Below, one piece after another: positions 1-34,246 of a DNA stretch of 64,000 nucleotides. The number at the start of each line of letters is the position of its first letter. The first letter of the stretch is position 1. Position numbers and translations under genes: made by a program. Source of the DNA: Peptacetobacter hiranonis (GTDB lineage Bacteria > Bacillota > Clostridia > Peptostreptococcales > Peptostreptococcaceae); contig NZ_CP036523.1 of NCBI RefSeq assembly GCF_008151785.1, positions 868,001-932,000 on the forward strand, in the 5' to 3' direction. A model generated the notes under the pieces. That model searched no databases, was not told the DNA's origin, and worked only from the letters and a program-made list of their open reading frames with translations.

Positions 1-1020
1 TTAACAGATAAAGAGATAATAGATAAGAAGGATGCTGAAATAGCATATCTTAAAGCAGAGCTAGAACTAGTAAAAAAGCTAGACTTCGAAGAAAGGCAGG
101 TGATGAATAATAAGCTACCTTCGGTGAAAATATTCAAATTAATTAATGATGTAATAAATAAATATTGTTTAAAAAAAATGATAAAACATCTATGTATTGT
201 TGCAGGAGTATCTAGATCTGGATTTTATAACTATTTAAAAAACAAGAATGTAATAAGCAAACAAGAAGAAAAGGATTTAGAAGCAAAAGAAATAATTCTT
301 AAAGCATATAAGTTCAGAGGATACAAAAAAGGTTCTCGTTCAATAAAAATGATTTTAAAAAGTAAATTTAATATAATATTTAACAGAAAAAAAATTCAAA
401 GAATAATGAAAAAATATGGAATTAAATGTCCTATTCGCGAGTCAAATCCAGCTAAACGTATGGGAAAAGCAAGAAAAGAACATCACACAGTTCCTAATAA
501 ATTGAATAGAGAATTTAAACAAGGTATACCAGGAAAAGTACTTTTAACTGATATTACGTATATGCCGTACGGCAATGGGAAAACAGCATATTTATCAACT
601 GTAAAAGATTCTTCTACGAATGAAATTTTATCGTATCATTTATCGAAGAATTTAAAAATGGATATTGTTATTTCAACTATTAACAATCTCATGTTATCAA
701 ATTCAGACAAATTACATAAAGATGCATTTATTCATTCTGATCAAGGAGTTCATTATACAAGTACTATTTTTCAGAACTTGTTAAAAAAATATAATTTAGG
801 TCAATCTATGTCTAGAAAAGGTAATTGTTGGGACAATGCTCCGCAGGAGTCATTCTTTGGTCATATGAAAGATGAAATAGATTATAAAAGTTGCAATACA
901 TTTGAAGAGTTAAAAAGTTTAATAGATGATTATATGGATTATTATAATAATGATCGTTGTCAGTGGAATTTAAAACAGCTGACTCCTATTCAATATAGAA
1001 GTCAGCTGCTTGCTGCTTAA
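1..1020 (+). CDS. IS3-family DDE transposase, N-terminus outside the window
   Basis: The reading frame is open from base 1 to the stop at 1018-1020 and corresponds to residues 102-440 of the complete transposase at 32832-34154. The visible part starts in the predicted coiled coil (TDKEIIDKKDAEIAYLKAEL). It then runs through the HTH_21-like region and the rve catalytic domain. The DDE triad is seen in LLTD, HSDQG and QESFFGH, with 35 residues between the second Asp and the Glu, as in IS3 transposases. An internal GTG at 100 could start a shorter product, but alignment to the full copy shows that the true protein continues upstream of the window. Probably functional if the missing part is intact. 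Confidence 0.92.
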   Translation, partial: LTDKEIIDKKDAEIAYLKAELELVKKLDFEERQVMNNKLPSVKIFKLINDVINKYCLKKMIKHLCIVAGVSRSGFYNYLKNKNVISKQEEKDLEAKEIILKAYKFRGYKKGSRSIKMILKSKFNIIFNRKKIQRIMKKYGIKCPIRESNPAKRMGKARKEHHTVPNKLNREFKQGIPGKVLLTDITYMPYGNGKTAYLSTVKDSSTNEILSYHLSKNLKMDIVISTINNLMLSNSDKLHKDAFIHSDQGVHYTSTIFQNLLKKYNLGQSMSRKGNCWDNAPQESFFGHMKDEIDYKSCNTFEELKSLIDDYMDYYNNDRCQWNLKQLTPIQYRSQLLAA

Positions 1021-4488: not shown

Positions 4489-5424
4489 ATGGAATTTAAT
4501 CATGTATCGGTACTTCTTAATGAGTGCATAGATAATCTGAATATAAAGCCAGATGGTGTTTATGTCGATTGTACTATGGGTGGTGCTGGACATTCTAAAG
4601 AAATAGTCAAAAGACTTTCTAGTGATGGACTATTTATAGGATTTGACCAGGATAAAAATGCCATAGCAACTGCAAAAGAAAGATTAGCAGAATATAGCGA
4701 CAGAGTAAAATTTGTACACAGTAACTTTGAAAATATAAAAGAAGAGCTTGAAAAAATAGGTGTACACAAAATAGATGGTGTGCTTGCAGATTTAGGTGTT
4801 TCTTCTCATCAGTTAGATGAGGCAGATAGAGGATTCTCTTATATGCAAGATGCTCCACTTGATATGAGAATGGACGTTAGAAAAGATTTTTCTGCGTACA
4901 ATGTTGTAAATGAGTACACAGAAGAAGAATTAGCAAAGATAATAAAAGACTACGGTGAAGATAACTGGGCTAAAAGAATTGCTAAGTTTATCGTTGAAGG
5001 AAGAGCAGAAAAACCAATAGAAACTACTGGAGAGCTAGTAGATATAATCAAAAAAGCTATTCCTAAAAAGGCGAGAATAGATGGGCCACATCCAGCAAAG
5101 AGAACATTCCAGGCTATAAGAATAGAAGTAAACAACGAGCTTGGAGTAATAACAAAAATGATAGATGATGCTTGCTCAATAATGAATCCAGGCGGAAGAA
5201 TTTGTATAATAACATTCCACTCATTAGAGGATAGAATAGTTAAAAACGAATTTAAATATCTTTCATTAGATTGTGTTTGCCCACCAGAGATGCCTTTCTG
5301 CCAGTGCGATAAAGTTTCTGAGGTTAAAGTTATAACAAGAAAGCCTATCCTTCCAAGTGCAGAAGAGATAGAAATGAACCCAAGATCGAGAAGTGCTAAG
5401 CTTAGAGTTGCTGAAAAGAAGTAA
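4489..5424 (+). CDS. rsmH: 16S rRNA m4C1402 methyltransferase RsmH (MraW)
   Basis: A 311-residue SAM-dependent methyltransferase acting on C1402 of 16S rRNA, normally near the head of the dcw cluster. The SAM-binding motif MGGAGHS (residues 31-37) and GFDQD follow the N-terminal HVSVLL typical of RsmH. The C-terminal half carries [12 protein letters not shown] and [12 protein letters not shown], both family signatures, and a Cys cluster ([12 protein letters not shown]). AAGGAG precedes the ATG. In related clostridia the next genes are ftsL and a PBP (spoVD/ftsI). Here they are absent and murF follows after 242 bases. Confidence 0.97.
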
Positions 5425-5666
5425 TTTTTGTCAAAAGTATTAAATCAGATGTGAATATCATATGAATATGTAACAGTTTGATTACATCTGACTATAAATC
5501 ACTTCAAAAAAATTTGATTTTGGTATATAATTATAAATGCTAAAATTTATCGGGGCAATGTGTGGACATCTATACATTGCCTTTATTGATAGAAAAAATA
5601 TTAACTAGAGCATAAAATTTTTTTGCTCAAAACCGACTTGTTGTCGGAAGGTTAGGAGGAAGTAAA
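5425..5666 (+). promoter_or_regulatory. murF promoter and hairpin-rich leader
   Basis: A noncoding gap of 242 bases between rsmH and murF. An inverted repeat TCAGATGT/ACATCTGA closes the rsmH side. A likely sigma-A promoter follows: TTCAAA (5503-5508), 17 bases, TATAAT (5526-5531). Downstream are three hairpins. The first is GGCAATGT/ACATTGCC (5554-5581, followed by CTTTATT, terminator-like). The second is GAGCA/TGCTC around 5607-5629. The third is CCGAC/GTCGG (5632-5646), close to the murF ribosome site. The hairpins could attenuate murF. No known riboswitch is recognised. Confidence 0.5.
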
Positions 5667-7052
5667 ATGGAGAGGCTGACAGTAAAAGAGATTGTCGAAG
5701 CATCTAAAGGAAATTTAAAAAATGGGGAAGGCAGCGAATCTGTAAAAGCTATCGTAATAGACAGTAGACTTGCTAAGGAAGATACAGCATTTGTAGCTAT
5801 AGTCGGTGAAAACAACGACGCTCATAAATATATCGGTTCTGCTTATGACTTAGGATGCAGAGTATTTATTGTTAATAAAGGAAAAGATATCGATATAAAA
5901 TCAGATATGAATATAATAGAAGTCGATGATACTTCAAAAGCACTTGGAGATATCGGTCACTATTATAAAAAGAAATTTGATATACTGTTTATAGGAATAA
6001 CTGGTAGTGTTGGGAAAACGACTACTAGAGATATGGTGTATGCAGCACTTTCTTCAGAAAGAGCTACTTTAAAGAATGAAAAGAACTTCAACAACCATTT
6101 TGGAGTTCCACTAACATTATTCAATCTAGATAGTAGTTATGAATGTGCTGTTATAGAAATGGGTATGTCAGGATTTGGAGAAATCGAGTACCTTGCAAAT
6201 ATGGTAAATCCAAAGGTTGCAGTTATATCTAATATAGGACTTTCACATGTTGAAAACCTTGGATCTCAGGAAGGTATTTTCAAAGCTAAAATGGAAATAA
6301 CTACTGGATTTGTAAAAGGAAATACTCTTGTTGTAAATGGGGACGACAAATTCCTATCTACTTTAAGAGATGCGGAAAGAGATTACGACCTTATAACATT
6401 TGGATTTGAAAAAAATAATGATATATACTGTGTAGCCTATGATATGACAGAAGATAGCATAGAATTTGAATGTTCTGTTATGGGAAATATAGAAAAAATA
6501 TTTATACCAACTGTAGGAAAACACAATATCTACAATGCAATGGCTGCAATAGCTGTTGGTACAGTAGAAGGAATATCTATGGAAGGAATTAAAAGAGGTC
6601 TTTCTAATTTTGAAGCTACAGGAATGAGACAGGATATAAGAAAAATAGGTGAGTACACTGTTATAAATGATACTTACAATGCAAGTCCTGACTCAATGGA
6701 GGCATCTCTTAGCATACTTGGAAGATATGAGGGCAGAAGAATAGCAGTTCTTGGAGATATGCTTGAAATGGGAGATTTAGCTGAATTTGGACATAGAAGA
6801 GTAGGAAAAGCCTGTGTAGATAATTCAGACGTTATAATAACTGTTGGAGAAAGTGCGGTATTTATAAATAAAGAAGCAGAGGAAAATGGATTTGATGTGA
6901 AAAATTCATACCACTTCGATAATTTAGAAGATGCTAAAAAACTTTTAGGAGAAATAATGCAGAGTGGAGATACAATGCTATTTAAAGCTTCTAGAGGGAT
7001 GAAATTTGAAAAATTCGTTGAGTATGTAAAGGAAGTTTCTGAAATCAATTAA
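5667..7052 (+). CDS. murF: UDP-MurNAc-pentapeptide synthetase MurF
   Basis: A 461-residue cytoplasmic Mur ligase that adds D-Ala-D-Ala to UDP-MurNAc-tripeptide. The ATP-binding loop ITGSVGKTTT is near residues 111-120, and NEKNFNNHFGVPLTL is the MurF-type segment after it. The central-domain EMGMSGFGEI and the C-terminal NDTYNASPDSM are also MurF hallmarks. AGGAGG lies 9 bases before the ATG. It heads a cluster with mraY and murD, with short gaps. murE is missing from the cluster and must be elsewhere. Confidence 0.97.
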   Translation: MERLTVKEIVEASKGNLKNGEGSESVKAIVIDSRLAKEDTAFVAIVGENNDAHKYIGSAYDLGCRVFIVNKGKDIDIKSDMNIIEVDDTSKALGDIGHYYKKKFDILFIGITGSVGKTTTRDMVYAALSSERATLKNEKNFNNHFGVPLTLFNLDSSYECAVIEMGMSGFGEIEYLANMVNPKVAVISNIGLSHVENLGSQEGIFKAKMEITTGFVKGNTLVVNGDDKFLSTLRDAERDYDLITFGFEKNNDIYCVAYDMTEDSIEFECSVMGNIEKIFIPTVGKHNIYNAMAAIAVGTVEGISMEGIKRGLSNFEATGMRQDIRKIGEYTVINDTYNASPDSMEASLSILGRYEGRRIAVLGDMLEMGDLAEFGHRRVGKACVDNSDVIITVGESAVFINKEAEENGFDVKNSYHFDNLEDAKKLLGEIMQSGDTMLFKASRGMKFEKFVEYVKEVSEIN

Positions 7053-7143
7053 ACTAAAAGAAGACATTTTCTATTTACAAGAAAAAAAGAAGGTATATAA
7101 TAGATAAAGTAAGATTTAAGAAACAATAGGAGGAAATTTTAAT

Positions 7144-8106
7144 ATGGATATTAAAAATCTAACTATTACGATGCTTATGGCATTTATAATAGTTGTAATA
7201 ATTGGGCCAATATTTTTACCTATGCTTCATAGATTAAAATTTGGTCAGACAGTAAGGGACGACGGTCCTCAGACTCACCTTGCTAAAAACGGTACACCTA
7301 CAATGGGTGGAATTATGTTTATGATAGCAATAACAATAACAGTTCTATTTAGAGCTAAGTTAGACTCTGATATATTTGTAGGGCTTGTTTGTATGTTAGG
7401 GTTTGGATTAGTTGGGTTCCTTGATGACTTTATAATAATAAAGATGAGAAGATCACTAGGATTAAAACCATGGCAGAAGATAGCTATGCAGTTTGTTATA
7501 TCTGGATATGTAGCATTCTATCAGTATACATCTTCTCCAGCGGCATCAAAAATAATGATACCATTTACAGATAAATTCTTAGATTTAGGTATTTTATACG
7601 TTCCAATAATGATGTTCATAATAATAGGAACAGTTAATGCAGTAAACTTAACTGATGGTCTTGATGGACTAGCTTCAGGAATAACAGCAGTAGTGTCTAC
7701 TTTCTTCGTAGCATTTGCTTTATTTGTAGCTAAAGATGCAGGAGTTGCGACATTTGCTGCAGCTACAGTAGGTGGATGTATAGGATTCTTAGTATTTAAC
7801 GTAAATCCAGCTAAGGTATTTATGGGGGATACGGGTTCTATGGCATTAGGTGGAGCTGTTGTAGCATTTGCAGTTCTTACAAACTCAGTTCTTTTAATAC
7901 CTATAGTAGGAGGTATATACTTTGCTGAGGCACTATCAGTTATAATACAGGTTACATATTTCAAAAAGACTGGAAAAAGAATATTTAAAATGGCACCTCT
8001 TCACCACCACTTTGAACAGTGTGGATGGCCTGAAACAAAGGTTGTATTTATATTCTGGATAGTAGCAATTATACTTGCTTGGATAGGAGTAGTAGCAGGA
8101 TTCTAA
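7144..8106 (+). CDS. mraY: phospho-MurNAc-pentapeptide translocase MraY
   Basis: A 320-residue integral membrane enzyme that makes lipid I from UDP-MurNAc-pentapeptide and undecaprenyl phosphate. Family motifs are present in order: GPTMGG-like NGTPTMGG, the aspartate pair in FLDDFI, NLTDGLDGLA, and the cytoplasmic HHHFEQCGW loop near residue 290. About ten hydrophobic segments are visible. TAGGAGG precedes the ATG. The spacing to murD is 19 bases, so the two are likely cotranscribed and translationally linked. Confidence 0.97.
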   Translation: MDIKNLTITMLMAFIIVVIIGPIFLPMLHRLKFGQTVRDDGPQTHLAKNGTPTMGGIMFMIAITITVLFRAKLDSDIFVGLVCMLGFGLVGFLDDFIIIKMRRSLGLKPWQKIAMQFVISGYVAFYQYTSSPAASKIMIPFTDKFLDLGILYVPIMMFIIIGTVNAVNLTDGLDGLASGITAVVSTFFVAFALFVAKDAGVATFAAATVGGCIGFLVFNVNPAKVFMGDTGSMALGGAVVAFAVLTNSVLLIPIVGGIYFAEALSVIIQVTYFKKTGKRIFKMAPLHHHFEQCGWPETKVVFIFWIVAIILAWIGVVAGF

Positions 8107-8125
8107 AAATTTGGAGGAAGAAGAA

Positions 8126-9478
8126 ATGGAATTAAAAGGAAAAAAAGTTCTACTTGTCGGTCTTGCAAAGACAGGAATATCAACAATAAAATGTCTTGCA
8201 AAATACGGAGCAGACATAACAGTTAATGATATAAAGACAGAGGATCAGCTTGAAGAAATAATAGCAGAGATAAAAGATATCGACGGTATAAAATATATTT
8301 TAGGACATCATCCTGAAGATATAGCAGACATAGATATGGTTGTTGTTTCGCCGGGAGTTCCTTTAGACCTTCCATTTATCAAAAAAGTAATAGAAGAAAA
8401 TAAAGAATTAATAGGTGAGGTAGAATTAGCCTATGAATTAGCCAATAAACCATATTTTGTAGGAATAACTGGTACAAATGGTAAGACTACAACTACTAGC
8501 CTAACAGGAGAAATATTTGAAAAAGCAGGAAAAGAAACTTATGTTGTCGGAAATATAGGTAACCCTGTAATAGACGCTGTACAGGCTGCAAATGAAGGGG
8601 CTAGCTTTGTTACAGAGCTTAGTAGTTTCCAGCTTGAAAGTATAAAAGATTTTAAACCAAGTGTGAGTGCTGTTCTTAATATAACTGAAGACCACATGAA
8701 CAGACATCATACTATGGAAAATTATATAGATGCTAAAGCTAGAGTATTTATGAACCAGGATAAAAATGACTTCTGTGTTTTAAATTACGACGATGAATTA
8801 ACAAGAGCTTTAGCAGAAAAATGTAATGCAAATGTAGTATTTTTCTCTAGATTAGAAAAACTAGAAAAAGGTATCTACGTTGAAAATGGAGATATCATAA
8901 TAGATATAGATGAAAAAATTAATTTAATGAAGGTTTGCGAGCTTTCTTTACCAGGAGGACATAACCTTGAAAACTGTATGGCAGCAGCTGCAATGGCTTA
9001 TGTATCAGGAATAGATATAGAAGTTATAAGAGAAGTTTTAAAAACTTTCAAAGCTGTTGAGCACAGACTTGAATTTGTAAAAGAAGTAGAAGGAGTTAAA
9101 TATGTAAACGACTCTAAGGGAACAAACCCAGATTCTACAATAAAAGCAGTTCAGGCATATGAAAATCCAATAATACTTATAGCAGGTGGATACGATAAGG
9201 GAAGTACATACGATGAACTTCTTGAAATAGCAAAGAAAAATGTTAAAACATTAGTTTTACTTGGACAGACTGCAGATAAAATCGAGGAAGCAGCTAGAAG
9301 AATAGGATTTACAGATATACACAGAGTAGAGGATATGAAAGAAGCAGTTAAAACTTGCCACGATATAGCAAAAGAAGGAGATATAGTTTTACTTTCTCCA
9401 GCATGTGCTAGTTGGGGTATGTACAAAAACTTTGAAGTAAGAGGAAAAGATTTCAAAGATAATGTAAATAATTTATAA
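8126..9478 (+). CDS. murD: UDP-MurNAc-L-Ala:D-Glu ligase MurD
   Basis: A 450-residue cytoplasmic Mur ligase. The N-terminal VLLVGLAKTGIST Rossmann segment binds the UDP-substrate. The ATP loop ITGTNGKTTTTS is near residues 113-124, and VNDSKGTNPDST is the MurD C-terminal motif. I chose the ATG at 8126 because GGAGG at 8113-8117 has correct spacing. The frame is open from a TTG at 8111, but that start would overlap the ribosome site. A strong terminator follows at 9499-9538. The usual next gene (spoVE/ftsW flippase-like) is absent. Confidence 0.96.
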   Translation: MELKGKKVLLVGLAKTGISTIKCLAKYGADITVNDIKTEDQLEEIIAEIKDIDGIKYILGHHPEDIADIDMVVVSPGVPLDLPFIKKVIEENKELIGEVELAYELANKPYFVGITGTNGKTTTTSLTGEIFEKAGKETYVVGNIGNPVIDAVQAANEGASFVTELSSFQLESIKDFKPSVSAVLNITEDHMNRHHTMENYIDAKARVFMNQDKNDFCVLNYDDELTRALAEKCNANVVFFSRLEKLEKGIYVENGDIIIDIDEKINLMKVCELSLPGGHNLENCMAAAAMAYVSGIDIEVIREVLKTFKAVEHRLEFVKEVEGVKYVNDSKGTNPDSTIKAVQAYENPIILIAGGYDKGSTYDELLEIAKKNVKTLVLLGQTADKIEEAARRIGFTDIHRVEDMKEAVKTCHDIAKEGDIVLLSPACASWGMYKNFEVRGKDFKDNVNNL

Positions 9479-9498
9479 AATTTTAAAATTGATATAAA

Positions 9499-9538
9499 GG
9501 CTGTGCTGTAAAATTTTACTCGGCACAGCTATTTTTTT
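9499..9538 (+). terminator. Rho-independent terminator after murD
   Basis: Stem GGCTGTGC with GCACAGCT, a 16-base loop, then TATTTTTTT. It ends the murF-mraY-murD unit exactly where spoVE or ftsW is found in spore-forming relatives. Confidence 0.85.
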
Positions 9539-9632
9539 GCTTGAAATTAAGATAAATAATTAAAATTATAAAAAATGTAATATAAAATTTATAATAAAAG
9601 GAACTAATCTATTAAAGAGGAGTTCAAAAAAA

Positions 9633-9650
9633 TTGTCAATCTGATATAAT
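9633..9650 (+). promoter_or_regulatory. extended -10 promoter for murG
   Basis: TGATATAAT at 9642-9650 fits the TGnTATAAT extended -10 pattern. The -35 match (GTTCAA at 9622-9627) is weak, as is common with extended -10 promoters. Together with the preceding terminator it makes murG a separate transcription unit. Confidence 0.5.
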
Positions 9651-9716
9651 ATTATAAGTGGAATATGAATTAACCATTGCTGAGTTATATAAATTGAAAA
9701 AAATAGGAGACAAGAA

Positions 9717-10817
9717 ATGAGAGTAATATTATCAGGCGGAGGAACTGGAGGACATGTTTATCCAGCAATAGCCATAGCTAATGAAATAAAAAGTAATAAT
9801 CCAGATGCAGAGATTCTTTTCGTCGGAACACGGAGCGGAATAGAATCTGAGATAGTACCGAAGTATGGATATAGATTAGAAACGGTTACTGTTCAGGGAT
9901 TTAAGAGAAAAGTAGATTTAGAAAATGTAAAGAGAGTGTTTAAACTTATGAAAGGTCTTCATCAGACTAAGAAAATAGTTAAAACATTTAAACCAGATGT
10001 TGTAATTGGTACAGGTGGATATGTAAGTGGTCCTGTACTATTTAACGCGTCTATGAAAAAAATACCTTGTGTAGTTCACGAGCAGAATTCATTCCCAGGT
10101 GTTACAAATAAAATACTATCAAAAACAGTTACAAAGGTACTTACTAGTTTTGAGGATTCTCATGCAAGATTCCCAGAAGCTAGTCAGCACAAACTAAAAT
10201 TCGTTGGAAACCCAGTAAGACAGGAAATTTTAGATGCCGATAAAACTGAAGCCAGAAAAAAACTTGGAATAGACCCAGATAAAAAATTAGTACTATGCTA
10301 CGGTGGTAGTGGTGGATCTAGTACTATAAATAAAGCGATGAAAAAAGTTATAAAACATATGGTTAAAGAAGATGTTGCTTTTATATTTGCTACAGGTAAG
10401 AGATTCTATGATAGTTTTATGGAAGAAATAAAAGATATAAAATTAAATAAAGACCAGAGAGTAATGCCTTATTTAGAAGATATGGCAAATGGTCTAGCTG
10501 CAAGTGATATAGTTATAGGTAGTGCAGGTGCTATTTCTTTAGCTGAGATAACAGCTCTTGGAAAACCATCTATAATAATACCAAAAGCGTATACTGCAGA
10601 AAATCATCAGGAATACAATGCAAAAAGTATAGAAGCAAAAGGAGCAGGTATAGCTATATTAGAAAAAGAGCTTACTCCAGAAAGATTGGATAAAGCAGTG
10701 TTCAAAATGCTAGGAGATGAAGCACTATTATCAGATATGGCAGCTGCTAGTAAAAAGGCAGGTAAACCAGAAGCGATAAAATTAATTTATGACGAAATTG
10801 AGGAATTAGTTAAATAA
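9717..10817 (+). CDS. murG: lipid II synthase MurG (GlcNAc transferase)
   Basis: A 366-residue GT28 glycosyltransferase that adds GlcNAc to lipid I at the inner membrane face. The N-terminal glycine-rich loop GGGTGGHVYPA is at residues 7-17. The C-terminal donor-binding region contains GSAGAISLAEITALGKPSI and the NHQEYNA motif of MurG. AATAGGAG precedes the ATG. It is followed by a 270-base noncoding gap and then ftsZ; divIB (ftsQ) and ftsA, often in this position, are not present. Confidence 0.97.
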   Translation: MRVILSGGGTGGHVYPAIAIANEIKSNNPDAEILFVGTRSGIESEIVPKYGYRLETVTVQGFKRKVDLENVKRVFKLMKGLHQTKKIVKTFKPDVVIGTGGYVSGPVLFNASMKKIPCVVHEQNSFPGVTNKILSKTVTKVLTSFEDSHARFPEASQHKLKFVGNPVRQEILDADKTEARKKLGIDPDKKLVLCYGGSGGSSTINKAMKKVIKHMVKEDVAFIFATGKRFYDSFMEEIKDIKLNKDQRVMPYLEDMANGLAASDIVIGSAGAISLAEITALGKPSIIIPKAYTAENHQEYNAKSIEAKGAGIAILEKELTPERLDKAVFKMLGDEALLSDMAAASKKAGKPEAIKLIYDEIEELVK

Positions 10818-10910
10818 AATATAAAAAAATTGATTTTAAAATAACTGTAATATTAAATTAATGAGCTAAATGTTTATATTTATTAAAAATTTTGCATATT
10901 TATCCTTGAA

Positions 10911-10940
10911 TTGACAAAATTGACTTGCAATAAGTATATG
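10911..10940 (+). promoter_or_regulatory. putative ftsZ promoter
   Basis: TTGACA (10911-10916), 18 bases, TATATG (10935-10940). It lies 150 bases upstream of the ftsZ start in a gap with no gene (10818-11090). Other AT-rich -10-like strings exist nearby, so the assignment is tentative. Confidence 0.4.
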
Positions 10941-11090
10941 TTTAGAAGTAAAATGGTATTATAGCTATTAATGTAAATATAATGGAAATTTATAGTCATG
11001 CAGATTATAAGTATGATTTATGATGGATGAAAATTATATATAATAGATGATAAGATGTATTATATTGGAGATAAAGAAGGAGGAGAATTG

Positions 11091-12236
11091 ATGCTAGGCT
11101 TTGACGTAGAATTAGAAGAATGGGTCAAAATAAAGGTTGTCGGTGTCGGCGGCGGAGGAAGTAATGCCGTTGATGGAATGGTTGATGCCAAAATAAATGG
11201 GGTAGATTTTATTTCAGTTAATACAGACAAACAGGCTTTATGTAGATCAAAAGCTGAATACAAGGTTCAGATCGGTGAAAAATTAACTAAAGGACTTGGG
11301 GCAGGAGCTGATCCAGAAGTTGGAAGAAAAGCTGCTGAAGAAAGTAAAAACGAAATAATAAAATTATTAGAAGACTCAGAAATGGTATTCATAACAGCTG
11401 GAATGGGTGGAGGAACAGGAACAGGTGCTGCTCCAGTTATAGCTCAGTTAGCTAAAGAAATGGGAAAACTAACAGTTGGTGTAGTTACTAAACCATTTAC
11501 TTTTGAAGGTAGAAAAAGAATGAAACAGGCTGAAACTGGTATAGAAGAGTTAAAGAGCAAAGTCGATACTCTTATAACTATACCTAATGATAGATTACTT
11601 CAGGTTGTTCAGAAAAATACATCTATGCTTCAGGCATTCTCTATAGCAGATGATGTTTTAAGACAGGCTATACAGTCAGTATCAGAACTTATAAAAGTTC
11701 CTGGTATAATCAACTTAGACTTTGCCGATGTTAAGAGAATCATGGGAGACAAAGGTCTTGCTCATATCGGTATAGGTAGTGCTAAGGGTGATAATAAAGC
11801 TATAGAAGCTGTAAGACAGGCTATTGAATCTCCACTTCTTGAAACTTCAATAGTTGGAGCAAGAGGCGTTATACTTAACATATCTGGTGGATTAGACCTA
11901 AGCTTAGTTGAAATAAACGAAGCTTCAAATATAATCTACGAATCATGCCACGAAGATGTGGATTTAATCTTCGGTGCTAATGTTAAGGAAGAATTAGGTG
12001 ATGAAGTAACTGTAACAGTTATAGCTACTGGATTCGATCCTGATATGCAGAAAGTTGCTAAAGAAACTAGAAAAATAATAAAAGAAGAATTAAATAAAGA
12101 TGTGGCTACAGTTGAATCAACTACTGTAGAAGAAGAAGCTCCATCAATAACAAAAGTAGTTTCTGAACCACAGATAGATGTAGATGAAGACATGGAAATA
12201 CCTTCATTTATAAGAAATAGAAGAAAAAGAAAATAG
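11091..12236 (+). CDS. ftsZ: cell division GTPase FtsZ
   Basis: A 381-residue tubulin-like GTPase that forms the Z-ring. The GTP-binding signature [11 protein letters not shown] lies near residues 106-116. The N-terminal [15 protein letters not shown] and the synergy-loop region with [10 protein letters not shown] are typical. The extreme C-terminus [15 protein letters not shown] is the conserved tail that binds partners such as FtsA, SepF and ZapA-type proteins. I chose the ATG at 11091, preceded by AAGGAGGAG. The frame is open from 11055, but a start there has no ribosome site. With no ftsA nearby, the SepF encoded at 22344 is a likely membrane tether. Confidence 0.98.
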
Positions 12237-12248
12237 TTAGTATAGACG

Positions 12249-12280
12249 GGCTGACGCAATATTTTGCGTTAGCCTTTTTT
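12249..12280 (+). terminator. Rho-independent terminator after ftsZ
   Basis: Stem GGCTGACGCAA/TTGCGTTAGCC with one G-U pair, a 4-base loop and six T residues. Strong. Confidence 0.92.
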
Positions 12281-12300
12281 AGTGCTCGGGAATTAACTAT

Positions 12301-12341
12301 CTCCTCCTCTCCAGGCAGTCGAGCTGCATTGTCGAGTTCGT
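12301..12341 (+). repeat. palindromic element E1 (short core class)
   Basis: Contains CTCCTCTCCAGGC, a 4-bp hairpin GCAG/CTGC, then CATTGTCGAGTTCG. The same core, differing only in the hairpin bases and loop, is found in E4 at 29269-29376. The outer stem is much weaker here (about 5 bp, TATCT/AGATA), so this copy may be decayed. It faces E2, 100 bases away on the opposite strand. Confidence 0.75.
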
Positions 12342-12437
12342 AGATATATTGATATTTGATTGTAGATAAATATGGTTGCGAGTGCAACTAAAGAAAAAGA
12401 AAAAAATGGATTGCTCTTAGAGTTTGAAAAAGTATTA

Positions 12438-12567
12438 GAAAGTTCGAAAAAACAAATTATCAGTGACAATCTACAGGCGTTTCACAACTTTTAAATGTGT
12501 TACATAAAAGGGTGAAACGCCGAAGCCTGGAACGATAATTGTTTTTCGGACTTTCTTTTATTTTACA
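12438..12567 (-). repeat. palindromic element E2 (long core class), minus orientation
   Basis: The outer stem pairs 12438-12461 with 12534-12555 (GAAAGTTCG…/…CGGACTTTC, over 20 bp with a few mismatches), followed on the plus strand by CTTTTATTTT. The inner stem is GGCGTTTCAC (12476-12485) with GTGAAACGCC (12512-12521). Read on the minus strand the internal loop strands are TTCCAGGCTTC and TGTAGATTGTC, the family consensus. The apical loop (CTTTTATGTAACACATTTAAAAG on the minus strand is split here as CTTTTATGT, AACACAT, TTAAAAG) closely matches E8 and resembles E3. Confidence 0.85.
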
Positions 12568-12611
12568 AAGGTAAGGGCAACCCCCTTTTTTCTTTTCAAT
12601 TAGCAAAAGAG

Positions 12612-12639
12612 TTGACAAATGTTGAATTAGTGTTATGAT
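12612..12639 (+). promoter_or_regulatory. nrdR promoter
   Basis: TTGACA (12612-12617), 16 bases, TATGAT (12634-12639), 66 bases before the nrdR start. The rest of the 12568-12705 stretch holds only a weak GGG/CCC hairpin followed by T residues near 12572-12596. Confidence 0.65.
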
Positions 12640-12705
12640 AGTATAAACAATTATCTATTAATAAAAAATAATTAAGTTATAATTAAAAAATGGAGGAAGA
12701 GAGAT

Positions 12706-22319: not shown

Positions 22320-22343
22320 CAAAGTAAATTGGAGGACAGTAAC

Positions 22344-22820
22344 ATGGCAAAAATAATCGATAAAATGAAGAATATATTCAGTGATGATGACGATTTAGAT
22401 TACGATGAATATGAAGGTGACGAATACGAAGATGATGATGTAGAGGAAGAAGAGGAAGTTGAAGAAACAGAAGATTACAATGCTCTACCATCTAATCCTA
22501 AAATAGGAAAAGTAATCGACTATCCAGCAGGAGGACATATGAAAGTTGTTATATATGCTCCTAAAATATACGATGAAGCAACTCAGATAGCAGATGCTTT
22601 AAAACAGAGAAAAACAGTAGTTGTAAACCTAGATGGGGTATCATCTCCACAGGTTAAAAAATCTATATTCGACTTTTTAAATGGTGCGGTTTATGTATTA
22701 GATGGAGATATTCAGAAAGTTGCTGGATCAATATTCATACTAGCTCCAAATAACGTTGATATAGATGCAAGTGTGAAAAAAGAACTAGAAAGTAGAGCTC
22801 TTTTCCCTTGGCAGAAATAA
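22344..22820 (+). CDS. sepF: cell division protein SepF
   Basis: A 158-residue protein that binds FtsZ and the membrane. The N-terminus MAKIIDKMKNIF is an amphipathic helix, followed by a very acidic linker (about residues 13-50, mostly Asp and Glu). The globular C-terminal domain contains VVIYAPKIYDEATQIADALK and a VVNLDGV strand, as in SepF. The ATG at 22344 follows GGAGG; a TTG at 22329 overlaps that site. SepF is likely important here because no ftsA gene is seen near ftsZ. Confidence 0.95.
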   Translation: MAKIIDKMKNIFSDDDDLDYDEYEGDEYEDDDVEEEEEVEETEDYNALPSNPKIGKVIDYPAGGHMKVVIYAPKIYDEATQIADALKQRKTVVVNLDGVSSPQVKKSIFDFLNGAVYVLDGDIQKVAGSIFILAPNNVDIDASVKKELESRALFPWQK

Positions 22821-24639: not shown

Positions 24640-24916
24640 CTTTAAAGGCTATGATGAAGACAGTAGATTCAGGATTTTATTTTTACAGAGAACTGGGTTA
24701 GCTGAGAACCAGCAAAATATACTGAATTGAATATCACTTCGGAGCTGAAGGCTGAAAGATTTATCCTATTTGGATTTATCAAATAAGTTATTCCGGTAAT
24801 GTGCCGTTATACAGTAGAGTGTCGTATAGATAAATTTAAAAAAATATCTATGCGGAATTAGGGTGGTAACGCGAGCAACTCGTCCCTTTGTGTATGCAAA
24901 GGCGACGAGTTTTTTT
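24640..24916 (+). promoter_or_regulatory. isoleucine T-box riboswitch
   Basis: A tRNA-sensing leader upstream of ileS. The stem I base with GATGAAGACAGTAG is near 24652-24665. The specifier loop contains ATC (24733-24735), an isoleucine codon, in AATATCACTT. The T-box AGGGTGGTAACGCG is at 24860-24873. The terminator AACTCGTC…GACGAGTT with an extended inner stem (CTTTG/CAAAG) and T-run ends at 24916. Uncharged tRNA-Ile is expected to pair with the T-box and allow read-through into ileS. Confidence 0.96.
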
Positions 24917-32792: not shown

Positions 32793-34246
32793 TAAAATGG
32801 TCCCTATGTCAAGGACATATATAAAAAAGTCTTAAGCAGCAAGCAGCTGACTTCTATATTGAATAGGAGTCAGCTGTTTTAAATTCCACTGACAACGATC
32901 ATTATTATAATAATCCATATAATCATCTATTAAACTTTTTAACTCTTCAAATGTATTGCAACTTTTATAATCTATTTCATCTTTCATATGACCAAAGAAT
33001 GACTCCTGCGGAGCATTGTCCCAACAATTACCTTTTCTAGACATAGATTGACCTAAATTATATTTTTTTAACAAGTTCTGAAAAATAGTACTTGTATAAT
33101 GAACTCCTTGATCAGAATGAATAAATGCATCTTTATGTAATTTGTCTGAATTTGATAACATGAGATTGTTAATAGTTGAAATAACAATATCCATTTTTAA
33201 ATTCTTCGATAAATGATACGATAAAATTTCATTCGTAGAAGAATCTTTTACAGTTGATAAATATGCTGTTTTCCCATTGCCGTACGGCATATACGTAATA
33301 TCAGTTAAAAGTACTTTTCCTGGTATACCTTGTTTAAATTCTCTATTCAATTTATTAGGAACTGTGTGATGTTCTTTTCTTGCTTTTCCCATACGTTTAG
33401 CTGGATTTGACTCGCGAATAGGACATTTAATTCCATATTTTTTCATTATTCTTTGAATTTTTTTTCTGTTAAATATTATATTAAATTTACTTTTTAAAAT
33501 CATTTTTATTGAACGAGAACCTTTTTTGTATCCTCTGAACTTATATGCTTTAAGAATTATTTCTTTTGCTTCTAAATCCTTTTCTTCTTGTTTGCTTATT
33601 ACATTCTTGTTTTTTAAATAGTTATAAAATCCAGATCTAGATACTCCTGCAACAATACATAGATGTTTTATCATTTTTTTTAAACAATATTTATTTATTA
33701 CATCATTAATTAATTTGAATATTTTCACCGAAGGTAGCTTATTATTCATCACCTGCCTTTCTTCGAAGTCTAGCTTTTTTACTAGTTCTAGCTCTGCTTT
33801 AAGATATGCTATTTCAGCATCCTTCTTATCTATTATCTCTTTATCTGTTAATTTTCTTTTTCTTGGTCTTCCAGAATTATTAACTCTAGAATCATCTAGT
33901 CCCAAAATACCATTTTCTTTATATGACTTTCTCCATCGCTCGCTAGCGCATTTAATACGTTTTGCACCTATGATGTTAGTGTCAAAACCTGCTTCTTTAA
34001 ATATCTGTGTTGGATTTTTTCCCTTATTGTATTCTGTTATGAAATGTATTTTAAATTCATTTGTATATGTTATTGATTTACAGCTTACATTCTTTACAAA
34101 TGGATTTTTTGATAGCTCTAATGTTTCTTCTTTACTAAATTGTTTTTTACTCATAAATTACTCACCTCTATATTAAAATTATACAAAAAAAGAACCTATA
34201 GATGAAACACCTTTTTACAAGTGTCCATTCTATAGGTTCCATTTTA
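32793..34246 (-). mobile_element. complete IS3-family (IS150-like) insertion sequence, 1454 bp
   Basis: The ends are imperfect inverted repeats (TAAAATGGTCCCTATG at 32793 and TAAAATGGAACCTATA read inward from 34246). A 3-bp target duplication ATT flanks it (32790-32792 and 34247-34249), the size usual for IS3. It is in opposite orientation to the copy at 1-1059. Ends were defined by comparison of the two copies and by the terminator arms on either side. Confidence 0.95.
32832..34154 (-). CDS. IS3-family transposase, single 440-residue ORF
   Basis: An N-terminal helix-turn-helix region (about residues 30-90, NPTQIFKEAGFDTN) is followed by a coiled coil (105-135) and an HTH_21-like segment. 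The rve domain has Asp285, Asp348 and Glu384. In most IS3 members two ORFs are joined by -1 frameshifting. Here both parts are in one continuous frame, so no frameshift is needed. GAGGTGAG precedes the ATG. It looks intact and the residues compared with copy 1 are the same, implying recent activity. Confidence 0.96.
   Translation of the reverse strand: MSKKQFSKEETLELSKNPFVKNVSCKSITYTNEFKIHFITEYNKGKNPTQIFKEAGFDTNIIGAKRIKCASERWRKSYKENGILGLDDSRVNNSGRPRKRKLTDKEIIDKKDAEIAYLKAELELVKKLDFEERQVMNNKLPSVKIFKLINDVINKYCLKKMIKHLCIVAGVSRSGFYNYLKNKNVISKQEEKDLEAKEIILKAYKFRGYKKGSRSIKMILKSKFNIIFNRKKIQRIMKKYGIKCPIRESNPAKRMGKARKEHHTVPNKLNREFKQGIPGKVLLTDITYMPYGNGKTAYLSTVKDSSTNEILSYHLSKNLKMDIVISTINNLMLSNSDKLHKDAFIHSDQGVHYTSTIFQNLLKKYNLGQSMSRKGNCWDNAPQESFFGHMKDEIDYKSCNTFEELKSLIDDYMDYYNNDRCQWNLKQLTPIQYRSQLLAA

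Follow-up and report, generated by a model that had tools for sequence, protein, structure and literature searches.

Probable loss of a sporulation module from the division and cell wall gene cluster of Peptacetobacter hiranonis

The window analysed here is a stretch of 64,000 nucleotides (G000:C1:868001-932000) from the genome of Peptacetobacter hiranonis, which is assembled as a single contig (2,521,899 b, 99.87% complete). It contains a division and cell wall (dcw) gene cluster that lacks ftsL-spoVD, spoVE and divIB, the genes found in sporulating relatives. It is highly probable that this cluster has lost a sporulation module rather than the vegetative divisome, with the septum built by PBP1 and the side wall by RodA-PBP2. 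The bacterium would thus probably divide with a single, different wall-building enzyme. The Peptacetobacter lineage of this genome appears to be asporogenous, as its gene content supports, and the gene loss is precise, as an earlier note on this DNA had suggested: the neighbouring genes are intact and the murF promoter is kept in place.

The loss was mapped by synteny, with 24 query proteins from the window and from Clostridioides difficile CD160 (locus L014, query names taken from its Pfam and NCBIfam annotation) searched by tblastn (E 1e-4) against 81 loci; the counts given here are for the window and loci L010-L050, 42 loci in total. Nine are stripped, namely the window, six Peptostreptococcus loci (L042-L046 and L048) and two further Peptacetobacter loci, L010 from a Peptacetobacter sp. 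metagenome-assembled genome (G033) and L011 from P. hominis (G032), whose MurG proteins are 88% and 81% identical to that of the window. In all 33 unstripped loci spoVE is found between murD and murG, and divIB follows murG in 32, the shortfall being a contig end. In 29 of the 33, spoVD lies either downstream of rsmH or ahead of murF/mraY, and the remaining four end at contig ends. The spoIIGA-sigE-sigG genes follow ftsZ in 29 as well; two loci are cut by contig ends and two Peptoclostridium loci are without these genes nearby. The sizes that the earlier note gave for the three gaps (242, 238 and 273 b) are exact, and the synteny of the 42 loci matches each gap to the site of missing genes. 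No tblastn match to ftsL, spoVD, spoVE, divIB, the two DUF881 genes, sbp, spoIIGA, sigE or sigG is found in the first 20 kb of the window, in L010 or in L011. Apart from that of ftsA, the losses listed in the earlier note, including that of spoIIGA, sigE and sigG, are thereby borne out, and the DUF881 pair and sbp, which are present in C. difficile and several other relatives and were absent from that list, are gone too. Stop-to-stop frames within the gaps are short, none resembles a missing gene, and tblastn (E 1e-4) found no relics.

The ftsA gene was also said to have been stripped, which the family does not bear out. FtsA (SHS2_FTSA, PF02491) is over its cut-off in none of 71 family genomes, spore formers included, with two weak sub-threshold matches in other genera and none in G000; there was therefore probably no ftsA in the cluster to strip. 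This absence rests on the genome-wide search, because ftsA was outside the tblastn query set and in many relatives about 1.6 kb of unlabelled sequence separates murG from divIB. Reliance on SepF as the tether of FtsZ, suggested as an outcome of the deletions, would not result from this loss, because the spore formers of the family also lack FtsA. An intact murE gene lies outside the window, about 29 kb upstream of it, at G000:837989-839374. In 12 spore-former loci of the Peptostreptococcaceae the spoVD-murF gap is 148-291 b, without murE and too short for it. The more distant loci of Peptoclostridium and Alkaliphilus type have an additional Mur-ligase match at this site, which is probably murE.

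The same division between genomes is found outside the cluster. The family set of 71 genomes includes three of Peptacetobacter (G000, G032 and G033) and nine of a genus coded g13, which is probably Peptostreptococcus given its pattern of gene presence and absence. Exactly one SEDS protein (PF01098) is found in 12 genomes, the three Peptacetobacter and the nine g13, and at least two in the other 59. The sole SEDS proteins of G000 (345.8 bits) and G039 (341.5) pass the RodA cut-off of 336.7 and fail those of FtsW and SpoVE. DivIB/FtsQ (POTRA_1) is absent from the same 12 genomes and present in the other 59. DivIC was scored in eight genomes and is over its cut-off in none of the five stripped ones (G000, G032, G033, G039 and G042), as against all three unstripped ones (G047; G075, from Asaccharospora; and G076, C. 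difficile CD160); the many weak DivIC matches in long proteins at E up to 1 were taken as coiled-coil noise. By tblastn ftsL is absent from the dcw cluster, and no genome-wide FtsL search was made. Only two proteins of G000 match PF00905, PBP2 (1005 aa) and the class A PBP1 (908 aa). The count is also two in G033, G039 and the Peptostreptococcus genomes G073 and G074, and G032 has a third, short match (a frame of 277 aa). Asaccharospora has four, including frames of SpoVD size (663 aa) and PBP3 size (562 aa), and C. difficile CD160 has eight matches. By PF01098, PF00905 and the RodA, FtsW and SpoVE cut-offs, G000 has no orthologue of FtsW or FtsI. Its PBP1 combines PF00912 and PF00905 and aligns with the PBP1 of C. 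difficile and of Peptostreptococcus, including the inter-domain segment that is the site of the published GI insertion, in a comparison that held no insertion-free PBP1.

These findings can be read against the biology of C. difficile, as described in the available text of PMC10693644. Deletion of ftsL, ftsQ or ftsB in that species leaves vegetative growth normal and impairs asymmetric division; SpoVD and SpoVE are sporulation-specific, RodA-PBP2 serves elongation, PBP1 drives vegetative septation, and there is no FtsA. P. hiranonis resembles this non-canonical divisome (PMC10693644, PMC12539705, both as far as available) in having no canonical FtsW/FtsI, no FtsA and a RodA-PBP2 pair in the mre cluster, and in a PBP1 orthologue that aligns through its catalytic and linking parts. 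By analogy, PBP1 would be the septal synthase in Peptacetobacter. C. difficile restricts the module to sporulation, and P. hiranonis goes further: it has no SpoVD, SpoVE, DivIB or PBP3-size protein, no DivIC above cut-off and no FtsL in the cluster. Where sporulation is predicted to have been lost, Firmicutes are likewise described as being without the dcw SEDS genes (PMC10693644, available text), and in P. hiranonis the absence of the dcw SEDS and the SpoVD-type class B PBP accompanies an apparent loss of sporulation. Unlike Bacilli, which keep a second FtsW, usually by pycA, and FtsI (same source), P. hiranonis has no second SEDS gene in the genome.

The loss of sporulation itself is suggested by several markers. 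SpoIVA is absent from the 12 single-SEDS genomes and, among the rest of the 71, from G020, G031 (75% complete), G034, G035 and G036. The eight sigma-70-type (PF04542) proteins of G000 are RpoD and SigH (both over cut-off), a SigI-like protein, three of the extracytoplasmic function type, one of the SigB/F/G subfamily and one SigF-like protein; SigE, SigG and SigK are not among them. A Spo0A_C match is found in 59 of the 71 genomes and is missing from G032, the nine g13 genomes, G026 and G031; G000 and G033 have only a short, diverged form. The asporogenous lineage proposed earlier therefore agrees with what was found, that is, SpoIVA, SigE, SigG and SigK absent and Spo0A reduced to its DNA-binding domain. 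A search for intact sporulation genes elsewhere (spo0A, spoIVA, sigma factors, SpoVD-type class B PBP, SEDS, divIB and divIC) found a single intact gene in G000, sigH, whose role is not confined to sporulation. Among the genes that the earlier note had named for a genome-wide check, spo0A is a fragment, sigE, sigG, spoVD, ftsI, ftsW and ftsA are absent at the cut-offs used, and murE is present.

The spo0A fragment and the SigF-like gene may be more than debris. In a spore former (G060, L138) the gene order is recN-spoIVB-spo0A-steA-like, which C. difficile (L173) shares at the spo0A-steA end; the names spoIVB, recN, steA-like, mreC, mreD, minE, comG-like and transposase-like are given by position or inspection, without a profile. 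In G000 and G033 spoIVB is gone and the frame of the Spo0A remnant remains, with Spo0A_C scores of 63.0 and 65.8 bits (cut-off 25). The interval between recN and the steA-like gene in G032 is about 240 b and contains no frame of 60 aa, and the two genes adjoin in three g13 genomes. The two remnants are 57% identical, and the neighbouring steA-like proteins are 92% identical. The dN/dS ratio (nonsynonymous to synonymous substitution rates) of the remnant is 0.34 (bootstrap 0.20-0.57), and in simple, substitution-only neutral simulations at the same divergence none of 2000 kept both frames open. The remnant therefore appears to be under purifying selection, weaker than that on its neighbours. 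It retains the ER-x-IR-x-AI motif of full-length Spo0A, which is presumably the DNA-recognition helix. The SigF-like factor is kept in all three Peptacetobacter genomes, with TIGR02885 scores of 214 bits in G000 and 238 in G032 (cut-off 321), and the G033 copy is 63% identical to that of G000. The gene is divergent from an operon that looks by inspection like comG/type IV pilus genes in G000 and G033, and lies beside pbp1 in G032. A fuller reading can be offered tentatively, with the balance tilted against it: that a walled lineage dividing by FtsZ has lost FtsA and the whole FtsQLB-FtsWI core, that the PBP/SEDS set is RodA-PBP2 and PBP1, and that an unphosphorylatable, receiver-less Spo0A and an orphan SigF-like factor were kept by selection as vegetative regulators. 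Asporogenous clostridia with remnant sporulation genes have been described (PMC3533761, available text), and as there, some regulators here outlast the spore; unlike there, Spo0A is its DNA-binding domain alone, without a receiver.

From these comparisons we infer an order of events for the loss of the module. The ancestral state would have been as in C. difficile, with SpoVD-SpoVE and FtsL, FtsQ (DivIB) and FtsB (DivIC) making the polar spore septum and SpoVD-SpoVE also making the cortex. Once the lineage stopped sporulating the module would have been useless, and because sporulation was gone it could be deleted without damage to the neighbouring genes. Lost along with it would have been the DUF881 pair, sbp and spoIIGA-sigE-sigG and, elsewhere in the genome, divIC, spoIVA, spoIVB, most of spo0A and probably pbp3. 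The murF promoter with its hairpin, and probably the ftsZ promoter, would have stayed to drive the remaining genes.

Several points weigh against the loss of a sporulation module as the explanation. P. hiranonis is termed spore-forming in the available text of PMC11747423. G020, G034, G035 and G036 are without SpoIVA but keep Spo0A, at least two SEDS proteins and DivIB; they are possibly intermediate or atypical sporulators, so either the cluster can survive the end of sporulation or SpoIVA marks sporulation poorly in these genomes. FtsL has no Pfam match even in C. difficile, and a diverged FtsL elsewhere in G000 is therefore possible. The inventory of wall synthases consists of the SEDS and PF00905 searches, with monofunctional glycosyltransferases not covered genome-wide. 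Lastly, a mixed pattern is reported for some Clostridia, Tissierellia and Erysipelotrichia (PMC10693644, available text). The finding is largely explained by published biology, and its value lies in the natural deletion test and the relic regulators. The main text of PMC10693644 contains neither "Peptostreptococc" nor "hiranonis" (Peptacetobacter was not looked for), and a prior mention in its supplements is possible. Among the matches listed in the literature searched, no paper was about this loss by its title or the opening of its abstract, and no study that tested sporulation of P. hiranonis from its genome was met.

Peptacetobacter and Peptostreptococcus might share one ancestral loss rather than have undergone two independent losses, a question that is close to even and leans slightly towards two. 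The lost gene set is identical in both genera. A quick tree of six dcw proteins from 62 loci joins Peptacetobacter to the spore formers (SH-aLRT, a likelihood-ratio branch support, 89), with Peptostreptococcus outside, which argues against a single loss. In a more careful tree of 30 loci (eight of the nine stripped ones) under a mixture model, each genus is a 100/100 clade and the fork between both genera and the spore formers is open; parsimony on this tree counts two changes of state, but a single stripped clade is not rejected by the approximately unbiased test (p-AU 0.372, log-likelihood difference 6.4). The scars also differ, with the murF promoter and hairpin patterns described below in three of three Peptacetobacter versus none of six Peptostreptococcus loci, and with a Spo0A remnant in two of three Peptacetobacter and recN next to the steA-like gene in the three g13 genomes looked at. 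Differing scars favour separate events, though later erosion could also give them.

The gaps were also said to contain promoters or terminators in each case and to imply rewired transcription. A consensus scan gives 49 promoter sites versus 40.4 +/- 7.0 in shuffles, and 7 terminators versus 3.1 +/- 1.7; not being clearly beyond shuffles for promoters, the promoter scan was rejected as evidence by itself. The claim stands for individual elements, a promoter and hairpin in gap 1, both types of signal in gap 2 and a probable promoter in gap 3. The spoVD-murF gap of 12 sporulating loci contains TTCAAA-17-TATAAT and, downstream of it, a hairpin of GGCAATGTATA..TATACATTGCC type or a near variant (GAGC..GCTC in L023 and L025). 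Because both elements sit in this gap in spore formers, excision 1 spared the murF promoter. Upstream of murF, 26 of 36 loci match the promoter pattern, namely the three Peptacetobacter loci and 23 others; it is unmatched in all six Peptostreptococcus loci, two Peptoclostridium loci, L026, where the locus is cut, and L039, which has the hairpin only. Matches to the hairpin pattern likewise number 26 of 36, without L025 and with L039. An alignment of 18 of these loci has 37 invariant columns. Of the 14 pairs of the hairpin in these loci, three have two-sided changes, five are invariant, and the rest have one-sided changes or are broken in some rows; the hairpin is therefore strongly conserved in sequence, with modest support from covariation. 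In the window it folds at -22.4 kcal/mol (z -5.5) and is the sole match there to the palindrome pattern. It has no Rfam family, the only match being to a microRNA, far under the gathering score (E 0.38). The promoter and the nearly invariant hairpin, which ends in a T-rich stretch, occupy 5503-5581 of the window and are a candidate attenuator or operator for murF-mraY-murD.

New promoters and terminators acquired after the deletions are, with regard to the cluster as a whole, an unlikely explanation. Gap 2 is unconserved among the three Peptacetobacter loci, and its hairpin with a T run and its extended -10 promoter are shared with neither L010 nor L011, so that rewiring has something to point to there. 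In gap 1, however, the promoter with its hairpin is the ancestral one of murF, and the promoter region of gap 3 aligns with the ftsZ promoter region of spore formers. Gap 3 thus probably holds the ancestral ftsZ promoter, a weaker case than gap 1 in AT-rich sequence. As a general claim rewiring falls; only the terminator and promoter between murD and murG look new.

Septation could instead have been taken over by RodA-PBP2, the lone pair of SEDS and class B PBP then working in elongation as well as division, with PBP1 as an auxiliary. It is the only such pair left in the genome, and the other stripped genus (probably Peptostreptococcus, a genus of cocci) also keeps RodA and a PBP2-size protein. 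Recruitment of this pair is nevertheless quite improbable. In G000 rodA and the PBP2 gene sit in a cluster with minC, minD and, judged by position, mreC and mreD, mreB adjoins, and MreB is kept in all 71 family genomes. Knock-down of rodA or pbp2 in C. difficile gives bulging, not filaments (PMC10693644, available text). A frame without annotation between minD and rodA looks by inspection like minE. Finally, it is very improbable that P. hiranonis is a sporulator with diverged machinery or that genes are missing by assembly error, despite its description as spore-forming and the presence of SigH and the SigF-like factor, given the near-complete single contig, the recurrence of a single SEDS and of missing DivIB and SpoIVA in two further Peptacetobacter genomes, and the lack in G000 of SigE, SigG, SigK, a SpoVD-type protein and a Spo0A receiver.

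Loss of a sporulation module makes this lineage a natural deletion test of the PBP1-divisome claim for C. difficile, with FtsZ, SepF, MinCD, RodA-PBP2 and PBP1 kept. It offers a simpler organism for asking how a class A PBP is steered without FtsQLB and whether PBP3 matters. If the reading is true, P. hiranonis, a gut bacterium that converts bile acids and that the veterinary literature calls spore-forming, cannot sporulate, which would matter for its storage in transplant preparations.

Table 1. Features of the dcw cluster (window coordinates) and of the putative relic regulators (coordinates of the loci named).
Feature	Coordinates	Strand	Basis
rsmH (mraW), left border of excision 1	4489..5424	+	Open reading frame; tblastn synteny
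Gap 1 (rsmH-murF, 242 b), place of ftsL-spoVD in sporulating relatives	5425..5666	+	Synteny
Ancestral murF promoter, TTCAAA-17-TATAAT	5503..5531	+	Scan and comparison of loci
Conserved murF leader hairpin, GGCAATGT..ACATTGCC	5554..5581	+	Comparison of loci; fold
murF	5667..7052	+	TIGR01143, 390.5 bits (cut-off 288.6)
mraY	7144..8106	+	Open reading frame; relatives syntenic
murD	8111..9478	+	Open reading frame; relatives syntenic
Gap 2 (murD-murG, 238 b), place of spoVE in sporulating relatives	9479..9716	+	Synteny
Terminator-like hairpin, then T run; not conserved in L010/L011	9499..9530	+	Fold -16.3 kcal/mol, z -3.4, 1/200 shuffles as good
Promoter-like site, extended -10, upstream of murG; not conserved in L010/L011	9623..9650	+	Scan and comparison
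murG	9717..10817	+	Open reading frame
Gap 3 (murG-ftsZ, 273 b), place of divIB-DUF881-DUF881-sbp in C. difficile-type relatives	10818..11090	+	Synteny
Probable ancestral ftsZ promoter, -10 region TGGTATTAT	10950..10965	+	Aligns with AAATGATATAAT block before ftsZ in spore formers
ftsZ, ATG start at 11091	11091..12236	+	Open reading frame; GGAGGAG ribosome-binding site near 11080; syntenic
ftsZ-nrdR interval, place of spoIIGA-sigE-sigG in sporulating relatives	12237..12705	+	Synteny
sepF, possible membrane tether of FtsZ	22329..22820	+	PF04472, 85.5 bits (cut-off 27)
Receiver-less Spo0A (Spo0A_C only), G000, 158 aa	L001 1381-1857 (G000:C1 about 981289-981765)		Pfam
Receiver-less Spo0A (Spo0A_C only), G033, 155 aa	L135 3262-3729		Pfam
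Diverged SigF-like sigma factor, G000	L181 4657-5412		Kept in 3/3 Peptacetobacter
Diverged SigF-like sigma factor, G033	L182 4223-4972		Kept in 3/3 Peptacetobacter
Diverged SigF-like sigma factor, G032	L183 2783-3598		Kept in 3/3 Peptacetobacter

Two further observations were made in the window. A transposase-like gene occurs twice, at 100-1020 (+), where the frame is shorter, and at 32832-34154 (-); the copies are alike by eye over their common part and flank a 32 kb block containing the dcw cluster, and a PADLOC scan of the two proteins returned nothing. A T-box leader (RF00230, 123.5 bits) lies at 24642-24890, upstream of an ileS-like gene.

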